The notes beneath the pieces were generated by a model, which was given only the letters and a program-made list of their open reading frames with translations, was not told where the DNA came from and ran no database searches. This document shows, piece by piece, positions 16,809-23,763 of a stretch of 64,000 nucleotides of DNA. Each line of letters starts with the position of its first letter. The first letter of the stretch is position 1. This DNA is from an uncultured Clostridia bacterium (GTDB lineage Bacteria; Bacillota; Clostridia; Christensenellales; Borkfalkiaceae): the NCBI GenBank assembly GCA_944337235.1, contig CALVLK010000002.1, forward strand, positions 123,131 through 187,130, read 5' to 3'. Made by a program: the position numbers and the translations under genes.

Positions 16809-18878
16809 TCAGCGGATGCGCATCTTCTTATGTTTGACGAAGAACCAGATGAGCACGCCCGCGCCCGCAAGACAGGCGACGCCGAAGATGATAGTCGCGA
16901 CGAGATAGGAGCCGAAGGCGTTATCGGCGGCGAGGATATAGCGCGTCTGAACGGCGGAGCGCAGCGCAAAGACGAGGTATTCCCCCTCCTGCTGCGCTTC
17001 GACCTCGACGAGCGAGCCGTCCGAGAGCACGCAGAAGAGCCGAATCTCCTTCTCGCGCAGATCTTCGCTCAGCGCAAGGCGGAAGGTGATGACGCGATCG
17101 GGCTCGGTAACGAACATGTCGTCGTCGCTCAGGCTCACCTCGATCGCCGCAAGCGCGTCGAGGCTGCTGTCCAGCCCGCTGTTTGCCCCGACGCTGTCCG
17201 TGACGTCGCGCACGGTAAAACTCCAGGTGGGAGGAACACCCCCCTCGGCGGTGACCATATAGCTGCTGCCGCCCTCGATTGTGCCCTCGAGCGCGGGGGC
17301 GTTGACGATCAGCTGTGCCTGCCGCTCCCCCTCAACCGCCTCGAAGTTCTGTATGTCGCTGACGGAGAAGGTGATCGTGACCTGATACACGCCCGGCTGC
17401 AGCTGTGCCGCCGAAAGCGGGGTGTCGCCGAGCGATACCTCCGCCCCGACCCCTGCAGGCAGGGAGGGCGCAAAATCTGCCCCCGTGAGCGCGGCCGCCG
17501 CCTCGCCGCCGACGACGGTGACGGACTGCACCTCGATGGCCTCCGCAGACAGGATATATCTGGAGACATTGACCGTAAATGTCTGCGAAAAGTTGCGCGC
17601 CCCCATCACATGGGCCGTGATCACGGCAGTATCGTCCACACGAACGGACAAATTGCCCGTGAGATAGTAGTAATCTGTGATATATGCCTCGCCCTGCGCC
17701 GCCGTCTCCTCAGCCGTGGGCAAAATGGTCCGCGTGAGCCCGTCGCTGTATGTGCCGATCACGGTGAGCCCTTCGAACAGCGTTTCGAGCGGGGTGTCGT
17801 AATAGATGACCGCATCGCCCTGCTCATACAATATCGTGATCGACTCGAGCGTCGGAACGGATACCGTAACGGCAAGCGTTGCGCTCGCCTGCTCTTCACC
17901 CTCGCCCGTCGCGGTGACGGTGAGCTCGCTGCTGCCCCCCGAGAGAGTGCCCGAGAGCGTGAAGGTCAGCTGCCCGCCATAGGCGGCGCCGTTTTCGTTC
18001 AGCGCGGAAATCTGAATGCGATCGCGCAGCGCATCGAGCGCGGTGGTGGGGAAGACGGGCTCCTCGCCCGTCAGGGCGGGAGTGATGGAGGCAAGCGGGC
18101 TGAGCACGATCGCATAGCTCCCTTCGAAATAGGAAATCGTGTAGGCGGGGTCGTCCGCAAAGAGCTGCACGCCCGCGTTCCCCGTTGCGACCTCTGCCCT
18201 GCCGCCCTCCGCCGTCACGCCGACCGCGCCCGTCGTCAGATCGGAGACGTCCATGCGCACGCCCCGGACGAGATAGACATTGCTCGCCGTCCCGTTCGCG
18301 GTCGTATTGTCGCGCACGGTCGCCGTGCCGCTCAAAATCAGCGTGCCCGCGGCATAGATGCCGCCGCCGTTGCCCCGCGCCATATTGCCCGTGACGCTTC
18401 CGCCATTCATCTGAAAGGCACCGCCCGCCTCGATATAGACGCCGCCGCCGTCCTCCGCAACATTGCCGGAGATGCTGCCCCCCGCAAGCACGAATGTGGC
18501 GCCTGGCTGCACGCGGATACCGCCGCCCGAGATCGCACCGCCCGTACCGCTGTCTGTGACCGTGAGCGTGCCCGTACCCGTCACCCAAAGCGTACGCCCC
18601 GCGCCTGCCGCGACCGAAAGCGTATGCCCGTTGAGATCGAGCGTCTTGTTGACCGTCACCTCAATGGTGGAGGCGCTCTCCGCATCGGTCAGAAGCGTGA
18701 GCGTACTGCCCTCCACCCATGCGTCCAATGCATCGGAGAGCGTTGCATAATTCTCCGTGCCGACGCGGGCGACGAAGCCATCGGCACGGGCACGCAGGGC
18801 GGCCGCGCCGCCAAAGCCCAAAGCGGCAACAAAGAACAGCATTATGGCAAGAAGGAAGCATCTTCTGATGAGTTTCAT
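16809..18878 (-). CDS. Surface protein with beta-helix domain and C-terminal membrane anchor
   Basis: 689 residues. A signal peptide (residues 1 to about 32, cleaved near ARAD) is followed by a right-handed beta-helix region (about 40-215) made of short glycine-rich turns such as GGGIRVQPGATF, GGGVYIEAGGAF and GGGIYAAGTL, of the pectin-lyase-like type found in polymorphic outer surface proteins. The middle part has Ig-like/MBG-like beta-sandwich repeats. The C terminus has one TM helix (about 660-682) followed by KHKKMRIR. It is probably a membrane-anchored adhesin or wall-binding protein; the ligand is unknown. A GAGGTG ribosome site precedes the ATG. It is divergent from the germination operon. 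Confidence 0.8.
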   Translation of the reverse strand: MKLIRRCFLLAIMLFFVAALGFGGAAALRARADGFVARVGTENYATLSDALDAWVEGSTLTLLTDAESASTIEVTVNKTLDLNGHTLSVAAGAGRTLWVTGTGTLTVTDSGTGGAISGGGIRVQPGATFVLAGGSISGNVAEDGGGVYIEAGGAFQMNGGSVTGNMARGNGGGIYAAGTLILSGTATVRDNTTANGTASNVYLVRGVRMDVSDLTTGAVGVTAEGGRAEVATGNAGVQLFADDPAYTISYFEGSYAIVLSPLASITPALTGEEPVFPTTALDALRDRIQISALNENGAAYGGQLTFTLSGTLSGGSSELTVTATGEGEEQASATLAVTVSVPTLESITILYEQGDAVIYYDTPLETLFEGLTVIGTYSDGLTRTILPTAEETAAQGEAYITDYYYLTGNLSVRVDDTAVITAHVMGARNFSQTFTVNVSRYILSAEAIEVQSVTVVGGEAAAALTGADFAPSLPAGVGAEVSLGDTPLSAAQLQPGVYQVTITFSVSDIQNFEAVEGERQAQLIVNAPALEGTIEGGSSYMVTAEGGVPPTWSFTVRDVTDSVGANSGLDSSLDALAAIEVSLSDDDMFVTEPDRVITFRLALSEDLREKEIRLFCVLSDGSLVEVEAQQEGEYLVFALRSAVQTRYILAADNAFGSYLVATIIFGVACLAGAGVLIWFFVKHKKMRIR

Positions 18879-21518: not shown

Positions 21519-22692
21519 CCGGCTGCACAGGCTCTCTGTAAAACTTTGGCTCTTTCTGGCAGCATTCCTGGTGTTTGCATTCTTCTCCAACGACTTCGGC
21601 CTGGTCGACATTCAAAAGACCGCCGTCATCCTCGCCGCGGGCATCGACAAGGGGGAGGACGGCTATACGCTCACCGCCCATATCGCCGTACCCAAGGGGA
21701 GCGACAGAAGCAAGGGCGGAACCTCAAGCGTGAACATCAAGGGACGGGGCGACACGATCTCCGCCTGCATTTCGGATATCTATGCCGACACGGGCTGGGT
21801 GCCCAAGCTCGTCTTCTGCGATCTGCTGCTTTTGGGCGAGGAGGCGGTGCAGGAGAACAGCTTTCTCGTGCTCGACTACTTTCTGCGCAACGAGCAGATG
21901 CCGGACAGCTGCCAGATCGCCGTATGCGAGGGCAGCGCCGAAGAGATGCTCTCCTCTGCCAGCGCCATCGACGACACCTCCGCCCTCGCCATAGAAAAAC
22001 TGCTCTCAGACGCGGCGGAGAAGACGGGACAGCTCACCCGCACGACGCTGCGCGAGTTTTCGATCGGCTACTACGGCGTATCTGAAAGCGGAAAAATGCC
22101 CTACCTGGGCAGCAAGACGCAGAGCGGGGCAGAGTCGGCGCAGGGCGGCGCGCAGGCGCAGGACGCCTCCGGCGGTGCGCAAAGCGGTGATGAGAAGATC
22201 TACGAGGTGCGCGGCTCCGCCCTCTTTTCGCAGGGCCGAATGGTCGCCCTGCTCAGCCCGGACGAGACGTTTGCATACAGTCTGCTGCAGGGCGAGGTGC
22301 GCTCCGGGACCTTCCTTGCACATGAGAATGGCGAAGCGGTCACGCTGTATGTCTACAAAAACAAGGGGAGCGTTTCGCTCTCGCTCGGCGACGTACCGGA
22401 GGCAGCGCTTGAGGTGGTGCTGCGCGTGCGCGTTGCCGACCGCGACGGCGCAACGGATGTGAGCGATCTGACCTCGTCCATCCCCTCGGACGCACTGCTG
22501 CAGGACGCGACCGCGGTGATCACACAGGCGATCTCCTCGCTCTGGGCGCGCATCGGCGAAAGCGAATGCGATCTCTTTCAGCTGCGGCAACAGCTGTTCC
22601 GCCACCACCGCGGCGAATATGAACTGTGGCGCGAACGGCTGCTCTCCGTTGCACGGCCGAACATCTCTGTGACGATACGGCCCGTCGAATAA
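21505..22692 (+). CDS. GerC-family (Ger(x)C) germination protein lacking a lipobox
   Basis: 395 residues. After one N-terminal hydrophobic segment (about 12-28) comes a region matching Ger(x)C: ILAAGIDKGEDGYTLTAHIAVPK, VPKLVFCDLLLLGEE, FLRNEQMPDSCQIAVCEG, and a C-terminal domain ending in VTIRPVE. The usual signal of GerC proteins is a lipobox Cys followed by W-D-R-E. Here the corresponding stretch reads FAFFSNDFGLVDIQKTAV and has no cysteine, so the protein is more likely anchored by an uncleaved TM helix. A linker at about 205-230 is low complexity (Ala/Gly/Gln). GGGAGG precedes the ATG. Confidence 0.85.
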   Translation: MKKHDRLHRLSVKLWLFLAAFLVFAFFSNDFGLVDIQKTAVILAAGIDKGEDGYTLTAHIAVPKGSDRSKGGTSSVNIKGRGDTISACISDIYADTGWVPKLVFCDLLLLGEEAVQENSFLVLDYFLRNEQMPDSCQIAVCEGSAEEMLSSASAIDDTSALAIEKLLSDAAEKTGQLTRTTLREFSIGYYGVSESGKMPYLGSKTQSGAESAQGGAQAQDASGGAQSGDEKIYEVRGSALFSQGRMVALLSPDETFAYSLLQGEVRSGTFLAHENGEAVTLYVYKNKGSVSLSLGDVPEAALEVVLRVRVADRDGATDVSDLTSSIPSDALLQDATAVITQAISSLWARIGESECDLFQLRQQLFRHHRGEYELWRERLLSVARPNISVTIRPVE

Positions 22693-22720
22693 AAAAATAA
22701 AACTTTTTTTCCAAAACCGC

Positions 22721-22748
22721 TTGACAAATGATAAAATCATGTTATAAT
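22721..22748 (+). promoter_or_regulatory. Consensus sigma-A promoter of the large RNA locus
   Basis: TTGACA (22721-22726), 16-base spacer, TATAAT (22743-22748). Predicted transcription start is about 22755. It begins 28 bases after the GerC stop codon and drives the region without ordinary genes. Confidence 0.85.
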
Positions 22749-22810
22749 GTAGTTGCAAAGGGGAAATAAATAACAAAACTTGTTAGAACTTTTCAAAGGG
22801 GACTACTCCA

Positions 22811-22831
22811 ATGAACAACTACCGGAAGTAA
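22811..22831 (+). CDS. Possible 6-residue ORF inside the RNA locus
   Basis: ATG at 22811 reads MNNYRK and stops at 22831. AAAGGGG (22795-22801) lies 9 bases before it. It is too short to judge coding; it may be a leader peptide or chance. Confidence 0.2.
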   Translation: MNNYRK

Positions 22832-22883
22832 CAAGACCCTGACGGCGGACAGAAAAGTTCGCCCGCACCCGGAAGACAGCAGT

Positions 22884-22964
22884 ATGAACGTCTTTCCAAA
22901 CCAAAATCCATATCGGGAGGTCGACGATATGAAGAAGATTTTCCAGAGCTTGAACATCAGGTAA
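22884..22964 (+). CDS. Possible 26-residue ORF inside the RNA locus
   Basis: ATG 22884 opens a 26-codon frame (starts MNVFPNQNPYREVDD, ends QSLNIR) that stops at 22962-22964. A ribosome site is weak (CAGCAG). Its stop codon touches the strong ribosome site of the next tiny ORF, an arrangement seen in real operons. No homologue recognised. Confidence 0.3.
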   Translation: MNVFPNQNPYREVDDMKKIFQSLNIR

Positions 22965-22979
22965 AAGGAGGACAGACCA

Positions 22980-23012
22980 ATGTACACTGAGACGATAGGG
23001 GCGGATCTGTAG
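22980..23012 (+). CDS. Possible 10-residue ORF with perfect ribosome site
   Basis: ATG 22980 reads MYTETIGADL and stops at 23010-23012. AAAGGAGG at 22964-22971 is a perfect Shine-Dalgarno sequence 8 bases before the ATG, the best one in this locus. It could mark a genuine micro-peptide or be a purine-rich part of the RNA. Confidence 0.3.
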   Translation: MYTETIGADL

Positions 23013-23413
23013 AACCGATCTGAAAGAGCAAACGGAAGAAACTTTCTCCGTTACGGGCGATACCCACAGATACAGAGATCGGTGAAACTGCTAAAGCGCA
23101 AGCGCCTGCCGCCGTTGCCGAAGTAGCGGCTGACAGATGAGAAATTCCGGTAGCTCATCGACAGCGGACAGAAGCGGTGCAGCAGATAAAAGAACCATTC
23201 GCCCAACAACTGAATGTACAAAACCTTCCCCTTCGGCAATGCCGAAGGGGAAAACTTTCCTGAAAGGGCGTGTGCTGCAGGGCATGAGGCAAAGAGAACC
23301 GACAAACGCCTTTCGCGGCACAGATCACCTTCCCTCCCGGCACACCGGGCAGGCGGAAAAACAGCACGCCAAAGGCGTGTAAGGCAGGCAAGAACATCTT
23401 CTTACGGTGCCCG

Positions 23414-23434
23414 AAGATCGATAAGATCTTTTTT
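23414..23434 (+). terminator. Internal terminator-like hairpin near the RNA 3' end
   Basis: AAGATC (23414-23419) pairs with GATCTT (23425-23430), followed by TTTT. The same AAGAT bases can instead pair upstream with ATCTTC (23396-23401), so two alternative stems compete. Confidence 0.45.
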
Positions 23435-23470
23435 ATTCCCCTTTCCTGACAAGCGGGTACAAAACGAACG

Positions 23471-23507
23471 ACAGCCGTTCAGAGAGTCCTCTCTGAACGG
23501 CTGTTTT
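23471..23507 (+). terminator. Strong terminator of the large RNA locus
   Basis: ACAGCCGTTCAGAGAG and its reverse complement (23471-23486 and 23489-23504) form a near-continuous stem followed by TTTT on the plus strand. On the minus strand the tail is not T-rich, so it mainly serves the plus-strand transcript, though it may also stop the zinc-ribbon transcript. Confidence 0.75.
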
Positions 23508-23530
23508 GAAAGATTTCTGACAGGCGGCGT

Positions 23531-23728
23531 TCAATGGCAGCCGCTGCACGTTTTGCAGTTGCCGCTGCACTGTTTGGGCGGTTTGCCCGTTGCAGAGTAC
23601 ATGCAGCCGCTCCAGCTGCGGACGGCGGGCGTGCGGCAGTCGGGGCAGAGTACAGTTTCGTCATGACGACGGACAAGTTCATCGAATTTCTTCCCGCAGG
23701 CGGGACAGACGTAATCTAAAATCGGCAT
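23531..23728 (-). CDS. FmdB-family zinc-ribbon protein
   Basis: 65 residues. MPILDYVCPACGKKFDELV followed by a second CPDC pair makes the FmdB/CxxC_CxxC_SSSS zinc ribbon, and the C terminus adds CSGNCKTCSGC. The family occurs as small putative regulatory proteins; molecular role unclear. The ATG at 23728 is only 6 bases downstream of a TATAAT box with a TTGACA at the right distance, so transcription should begin at or next to the A of the ATG: the mRNA looks leaderless. No other start codon fits the conserved N terminus. Confidence 0.88.
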   Translation of the reverse strand: MPILDYVCPACGKKFDELVRRHDETVLCPDCRTPAVRSWSGCMYSATGKPPKQCSGNCKTCSGCH

Positions 23729-23734
23729 AGCTGT

Positions 23735-23763
23735 ATTATATTCATTTTCTGCCCCCTTGTCAA
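23735..23763 (-). promoter_or_regulatory. Consensus promoter of the FmdB-type gene, giving a leaderless mRNA
   Basis: On the minus strand TTGACA (23758-23763), 17-base spacer, TATAAT (23735-23740). The ATG begins 7 bases after the -10 box. Confidence 0.8.

Follow-up and report, generated by a model that had tools for sequence, protein, structure and literature searches.

A probable new family of structured RNAs with tandem micro-ORFs in Clostridia

A stretch of 64,000 nucleotides of DNA from an uncultured Clostridia bacterium (hereafter the window) encodes, behind a germination operon, a structured RNA that almost certainly belongs to a conserved family transcribed independently of its neighbors. 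Sequence comparison supports the family itself, its helices, its short reading frames and its independence, and points to a new RNA family that is nearly universal in one genus, common in the bacterial family around it, and perhaps present beyond. Usually two to four, and at times about five, micro-ORFs per RNA lie among the conserved helices, and these are quite probably translated. The best explanation of the observations as a whole, to which we would give somewhat less than an even chance, is an independently transcribed structured RNA in which occupancy of the micro-ORFs would set the fold of the 3' part.

The locus and the conserved transcribed unit

The gap between gerAC, which ends at 22692, and a zinc-ribbon gene on the minus strand (23531-23728) measures 838 bases, as given in the preliminary description. 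The three genes of the operon show Pfam matches to GerA, Spore_permease and GerAC, and the zinc-ribbon gene, which lies 3' of the RNA, is convergent with it. A protein gene in the gap was considered and set aside; ORFs of between 64 and 150 codons are present there on either strand. A long minus-strand ORF adjoining the germination operon (16809-18878) gives, from its sequence, the impression of a surface protein. The features of the locus are the following:

22721..22748, plus strand: promoter, TTGACA - 16 nt - TATAAT with extended -10 (TG); 12 of 12 consensus positions, also present in homologues
22755..23260, plus strand: conserved transcribed unit (the RNA family), from nhmmer and covariance-model homologues
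22771..22785, plus strand: 5' hairpin of the window copy, TAACAA/TTGTTA
22811..22831, plus strand: micro-ORF1, MNNYRK-stop, with a GGGG Shine-Dalgarno-like site at 22798-22801
22844..22863, plus strand: hairpin H2, GGCGGAC..GTTCGCC
22909..22931, plus strand: hairpin H4, CATATCG/CGATATG; its loop shows GGGAGGT and its 3' arm holds the ORF2 start
22929..22964, plus strand: micro-ORF2, MKKIFQSLNIR-stop; start found by pattern in genus copies
22965..22978, plus strand: Shine-Dalgarno site of ORF3, AAGGAGGACAGACC, abutting the ORF2 stop
22980..23012, plus strand: micro-ORF3, MYTETIGADL-stop
22999..23005, plus strand: closing helix of the 3' domain, 5' strand GGGCGGA, inside ORF3
23198..23204, plus strand: closing helix of the 3' domain, 3' strand TTCGCCC, just before ACAACTGAAT
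23206..23215, plus strand: conserved 3' motif ACAACTGAAT; the motif or a variant in 65 of 73 genus homologues (by pattern)
23226..23252, plus strand: terminator-like hairpin, with a U-poor tail in the window copy
23471..23504, no strand assigned: second, perfect 16-bp hairpin, outside the conserved unit

The promoter, which had been called near-perfect, is confirmed as a sigma-70-type element with TG before the -10 box. Its counterparts in the genus have TTGACA in 72 of 74 cases, the two exceptions apparently being L090 and L105, both cut at the 5' end; the spacer is 16 nt in 72 and TGn is present in 71, while the -10 box reads TATAAT in 59, TATACT in 9 and TACAAT in 4. A promoter of this type suggests vegetative expression.

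The start of the unit is placed from the promoter, and its end from the first terminator-like hairpin. With its promoter the conserved unit spans approximately 22721-23260, and the stretch on to 23507, where the 3' boundary had been drawn in the preliminary description, is not part of the conserved RNA, as homologues terminate soon after ACAACTGAAT. Lengths in the genus range from about 350 to 720 nt, as taken from homology spans rather than transcripts. When G-U pairs are allowed, a terminator stem with a T-run is found in 63 of 67 homologues versus 31 of 1340 shuffled controls, and a stricter scan for perfect stems finds it in only 15 of 65. The window copy is one of the four exceptions that have no proper stem and T-run. 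The hairpin at 23471-23504 probably acts as a common terminator for the RNA and the convergent zinc-ribbon gene and, because the hairpin at 23226-23252 has no good T-run, read-through to it is possible in this genome, giving an RNA of about 750 nt. The match between 22757-22770 and 23431-23444, which had been proposed as a 13-bp helix joining the two ends of the RNA, does exist (86% over 14 nt); a functional closing role for it finds no support, and since homologues end at the terminator soon after ACAACTGAAT, 23431-23444 falls outside the conserved unit.

Phyletic distribution

When the genome itself and 100 related ones were searched with blastn, many members of the same genus had matches at E<1e-5, mainly over the promoter plus the initial 306 bases. 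Beyond the genus the lowest E-value was 0.0039. From the blastn matches 58 stretches were taken, in 54 of which nhmmer finds the RNA, making 55 sequences with the window. Scanning the named genome contigs with a pattern yielded 49 stretches, 46 of which are the RNA (L121, L132 and L138 are not); these 46 are MAG contigs, (uncultured) Clostridia bacterium, with isolates mostly named Lapin, and the 19 of them that were new complete a genus set of 74 sequences. As homologues are linked by descent, none of the counts in this work are of independent events, and the shuffles and permutations ignore relatedness.

A covariance model of the RNA core (R1) matched 97 of 103 genomes of the genus at E<=0.01, including 59 of the 60 good-quality genomes, these matches being mostly counted by score with few read individually; one of the 59 (L182, in genome G103) was read as false, leaving 96 of 103 and 58 of 60. 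Across the family, 81 of 201 genomes had an R1 match, and with a broader, sequence-only family-wide model (R2) the tally was 135 of 251 at E<=0.001, in 12 of 18 genera. Most genomes of the genus have one strong match. Genome G005 has two diverged copies, both strong (L067 on contig C11 and L058 on C36); elsewhere in the genus no genome has more than a single strong match, and a weak additional one occurs in some.

Inspection by eye of 28 weaker or out-of-genus matches judged 22 to be homologous and six not (L159, L182, L184, L185, L196 and L197). Two of the latter, L184 (G142:C3) and L185 (G007:C13), carry nearly the same element, in which a hairpin displays an AUG together with a Shine-Dalgarno-like site and which further has a frame of three codons and a second site, AAGGAGG. 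This element is similar to the H4-ORF2-ORF3 core (R1 E-values 5.0e-6 and 1.9e-5) but has other surroundings, and was counted as non-homologous. Fifteen further matches were also judged by eye. Thirteen of these are in the family, 12 with at least two micro-ORFs and one (L209) with a single one; of the two outside it, L217 (G902) looks real and L218 (G821) was rejected, the latter matching the beginning of a small ORF that resembles a cyclic-lactone autoinducer precursor.

The order-wide search gave six genomes outside the family at E-values of 5e-4 to 5e-3, among which L196 and L197 were read and rejected. In the class-wide search R2 matched 12 of 391 genomes, of which eight do not belong to the family; three of these eight were read, with G902 and G797 accepted as real and G821 (L218) rejected. 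A class-wide pattern search found two of 391 genomes, G1018 (two sites, one RNA) and G710, whose match sits in an apparent protein gene. In a second family, f82, three of 21 genomes were matched, and L217/L201 (one place), L219 and L220 show tandem micro-ORFs and terminators by eye. L217 and L219 are likely to share descent with the window RNA, and L220 may do so.

Fold and conserved helices

The fold of 22740-23510 lies well below shuffled sequences (z -8.16, 0 of 20), as does that of the conserved unit 22755-23260 (z -4.32, 0 of 100); the minus strand folds less well (z -1.95, 2 of 100 shuffles). Homologues share the order promoter, H1, micro-ORF1 region, H2, H3, H4, ORF2, Shine-Dalgarno site, ORF3, 3' domain, ACAACTGAAT and terminator. 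In relatives a longer H1 in another register occupies the site of the window's 5' hairpin (22771-22785), and the window copy forms only part of the counted H1 pairs.

Helices H1-H4 were evaluated together (29 pairs, 31 sequences), in a test that leans towards them as they were hand-picked from the alignment. The paired share of their cells is 82.1%, compared with 76.8% for shuffles (0 of 500) and no more than 40.3% once partners are slid; the covariation score is 0.194, compared with 0.122 for shuffles (0 of 500) and no more than 0.091 once partners are slid. Changes on both sides occur in 16 pairs and 46 cells (10.3 pairs in shuffles, 0 of 500), a count that is weaker than the score given that a slide by +2 still yields 14 pairs and 40 cells. 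Five of the six counted pairs of H2 have such changes, and H3 is the weakest helix, with 64.8% paired. H4, whose loop presents GGAGG in homologues, has a compensating change in one of its seven pairs (CATATCG to CATAACG) while the others hardly vary; taken alone its signal is modest, with 95.5% paired versus 92.3% in shuffles and one both-side pair versus 0.5. RNAalifold alone recovered four pairs on the MAFFT alignment of the 5' part and none in another run.

The evaluation of the helix closing the 3' domain was alignment-free. Patterns located both arms in 78 out of 95 sequences, from which a non-redundant set of 59 was drawn. The arms of the same RNA pair at -16.4 kcal/mol versus -14.1 kcal/mol for arms of different RNAs, a result reached in none of 10000 permutations by either measure. 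As judged visually, the best helix joins a GGGGC-like element of ORF3 to the end of the 3' arm in about 43 of the 59 sequences; L067, L072 and L080 are among the sequences in which another helix scores best. The ORF3 arm is GGGGCG and variants thereof, and the helix appears as GGGCGGA/TCTGCCC, AGAGGC/GCCTCT and GGAACG/CGTTCC, or as CAGGGGCG/CGCTCCTG beside TAGGGGCG/CGCTCCTA. The length of the 3' domain that it encloses varies much among homologues.

The micro-ORFs

The RNA had been described as noncoding, a designation that the comparison does not support, as the copies carry the Shine-Dalgarno, start and stop signals of micro-ORFs. Across 74 RNAs, Shine-Dalgarno sites with an ATG number 2.36 per RNA (range 1-4) versus 0.42 in dinucleotide shuffles, and 161 of the 175 frames at such sites end within 20 codons versus 49% in shuffles. 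A stricter Shine-Dalgarno definition admits, in the window, only the starts at 22929 and 22980 and not that at 22811. These frames and the helix closing the 3' domain were absent from the preliminary description.

The start sites of ORF2 and ORF3 were placed by pattern in 73 of 74 genus copies (L074 was missed), the patterns calling for ATG in ORF2 and for an A/G-T/C-G start followed by TA[CT] in ORF3, so that the start counts are partly built in. Frames were scored in 71 copies, a set that excludes L060 and L115. The ORF3 start codon is ATG in 60, GTG in 6 and ACG in 5 of them, four of the five ACG copies forming one close group, and the frame reaches a stop within 13 codons in all 71, versus more than 13 codons in 27 and 40 of the 71 in the other two frames. 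ORF2 is likewise no longer than 13 codons in 67 of 71, that is, in all but L051, L055, L057 and L061; its +1 frame is also short (more than 13 codons in one of 71), making the length of ORF2 alone a weak indication. In these four copies ORF2 has no stop and is fused in frame to an ORF3 with an ACG start; L082 and L183 have ACG in ORF3 without such a fusion. The distance between the ORF2 and ORF3 starts is a multiple of three in 63 of 73 copies. ORF2 ends in TAA (33), TAG (29) or TGA (9), and ORF3 in TAA (36), TAG (11) or TGA (24).

The GGGG of ORF1 (22798-22801) can pair with a CTCC 5' of the AUG. Some copies (L049, L123) lack ORF1, and others repeat it: three ORF1-like frames are present in L051, L055, L057 and L061, and L183 has about five frames. 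Very short frames occur in a number of copies, such as MG, MHR and MNK, each followed by a stop, and AUG-UAA. The codon after the start of ORF1 and ORF3 very often ends in C (TAC, CAC, GAC, AAC, GGC), giving AUGNAC or AUGGGC; ORF1 of L046 and L112 is an exception, with GAA.

Comparison with known RNAs

At the gathering cut-off, none of 4227 Rfam models, among which are OLE, ROOL, GOLLD, raiA, 6S and tmRNA, matched in the window or in ten homologous loci (130514 bases), in line with the preliminary description, which recognised no OLE, ROOL or GOLLD motif; a search of 22690-23740 gave eight matches, all at E-values of 0.19 or worse. The analysis bears out the proposal of a structured RNA separate from the germination operon, one that shows compensating changes among relatives and fits no Rfam family. 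Literature searches of open-access PMC papers brought up none with a title or displayed abstract that describes such an RNA.

The nearest RNAs in size or host are the large ornate RNAs OLE, ROOL and GOLLD, and the raiA motif or ModT. The large ornate RNAs (PMC12286853) are likewise long, structured, intergenic and at most partly understood in function, and all three are marked by homo-oligomeric assembly. ROOL and GOLLD are borne by phages or prophages, often near tRNAs. In contrast, the window RNA had no blastn match in 50,697 phage records, its core pattern was found in three stretches of viral_contigs, none of which contains the RNA by nhmmer, and nothing similar was detected by blastn in plasmid records; an origin from phages or plasmids was rejected on these grounds. 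The window RNA further differs from all three in its tandem micro-ORFs, in having mostly one strong match per genome and in its frequent position beside sporulation genes. The raiA motif or ModT is a trans-acting structured RNA of Clostridia that affects sporulation (PMC11706538). Unlike it, the window RNA contains micro-ORFs, and it and ten relatives have no Rfam raiA match; a separate search for raiA RNA found none in 26 genomes, the positive control being silent as well. A likeness to tmRNA lies in a structured RNA with an internal short frame read by ribosomes. An identity with tmRNA was rejected, as the tmRNA of the same genome lies elsewhere (G000:C12:66-454, 144.9 bits), and tmRNA was above the cut-off in 23 of 26 genomes.

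SgrS/SgrT and RNAIII are dual-function small RNAs with a small ORF. They and the sORF and uORF motifs met among structured motifs by the pipeline of PMC6429828 resemble the window RNA in combining an RNA with a small reading frame; the latter differs in having several micro-ORFs with undetectable peptide selection and no consistent downstream gene, and nothing like it appears in the relevant part of that source.

Genomic context

The surroundings of 106 loci, the window not among them, were searched for GerAA, GerAB, GerAC and SpoIIE. Three of them duplicate a contig in the set, and L191 has its core in common with L048. Relative to the RNA, these genes are on the same strand in 67 loci, inverted in 18 and mixed in one (L047), and none occurs in the stretch covered at 20. 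For SpoIIE, a Pfam match confirmed the assignment at a single locus, L046. Synteny with the gerA operon and spoIIE is seen in further genera of the family too, g47 among them, and may reflect either descent or a link to sporulation. Because these genes adjoin the RNA in either orientation, and because the RNA has its own promoter and terminator, the comparison of loci indicates that it is an independent gene.

Possible mode of action

We propose, tentatively and from the pattern of conservation, that this might be a previously undescribed class of RNA that senses translation, in which the micro-ORFs would be landing pads for ribosomes and their occupancy would set the fold of a trans-acting 3' domain. 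The strong promoter would keep the RNA abundant, and ribosomes would initiate at Shine-Dalgarno sites displayed by hairpins, run mostly for fewer than 20 codons and stop, with coupling carrying them from ORF2 to ORF3. Occupancy of ORF2 and ORF3 would open H4 and the closing helix of the 3' domain, the latter being melted by a ribosome on ORF3. How this domain folds, along with its putative function in trans, would then track the supply of initiating ribosomes, so that the RNA would serve as a gauge of translation status in which the peptide sequence is largely irrelevant.

An alternative is that the RNA is a sink for ribosomes or initiation, whose tandem start-stop units would sequester 30S subunits, initiator tRNA or particular tRNAs through peptidyl-tRNA drop-off, in the manner of the lambda bar minigenes, and thereby brake translation; we consider this unlikely. 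ORF2 and ORF3 are mostly 9-13 codons long and classic drop-off minigenes are shorter, and both the 3' domain and the helix running through ORF3 would be needless in a sink. Consistent with it are the strong promoter, the absence of detectable selection on the peptide sequence and the tandem start-stop units themselves, among which are the single-codon frame AUG-UAA of L208 and frames of two codons in L050, L058, L208 and L210. Minigenes are reported to inhibit translation (papers cited in PMC8012679), and the lambda bar RNA, with a start, one or few codons and a stop, is the nearest known system in the act of translation, although it differs from the window RNA, which is chromosomal, has its tandem frames set in a conserved structure and is conserved across genera.

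A second unlikely alternative is a micropeptide mRNA, encoding an often cationic ORF2 peptide and an ORF3 peptide of the form MYxxMIGAEK, in which the structure merely tunes translation. It would account for the maintenance of frames and stops and for the similarity of ORF3 peptides across genera (MYxxMIGAEK, MYNFxxGAVK). However, single-nucleotide codon changes between pairs that are at most 25% different reveal no synonymous excess in either frame: 108 of 378 (0.286 observed, 0.259 expected) in ORF2, and 114 of 690 (0.165 observed, 0.234 expected) in ORF3, in a test limited by the few codons and confounded by RNA constraint. Moreover, the conserved GGGGC in ORF3 is accounted for by the closing helix, and the second codon of ORF3 is TAC in all of the 40 copies compared and never TAT, though the pattern allowed both, which argues for a constraint at the RNA level. 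The preliminary description had set conserved frames with synonymous substitutions, in place of covarying helices, against a structured RNA; the Shine-Dalgarno, start and stop sites of the frames are indeed kept, but the synonymous excess is absent and helix compensation is present. As stop positions are kept without synonymous excess, it is the act of translation rather than the peptide that seems to be selected, and the most economical reading of the sequences would be selection on starting and stopping at these places, with the peptide either free or bound by RNA structure.

It is still less probable that the RNA is an ordinary structured noncoding RNA, with micro-ORFs arising by chance from conserved purine-rich loops. 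Conservation at the RNA level is strong, such loops could mimic Shine-Dalgarno sites, and start codons do lie within conserved RNA elements such as H4; against this stand the enrichment of sites over shuffles, the frame-specific stops of ORF3, the 3-nt periodicity of the spacing and the extra modules. A particular form of this alternative, a CsrA sponge of the CsrB/RsmZ type, is unlikely, as CsrA was found in none of 61 genomes, in a search whose control responds in only three of 14. A cis-acting leader or leader-peptide attenuator of spoIIE or the germination operon, which the synteny in many loci would favor, is very improbable and largely refuted by the inversions, given the RNA's own promoter and terminator, the inverted loci and those with neither neighbor, the lack of a consistent same-strand downstream gene and the convergent gene that follows in the window.

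Implications

For RNA discovery the family is a warning that sorting motifs into short ORFs or noncoding RNAs is too binary. If it is true that Shine-Dalgarno, start and stop sites are selected and the peptides are not, the translation-sensing proposal would describe a new way for an RNA to read the translational state of the cell, and the homologues provide a large comparative set on which this idea can be tested. The presence of the RNA in nearly all genomes of the genus, with a near-consensus promoter, makes it likely to be important to its hosts, as are tmRNA or 6S RNA.
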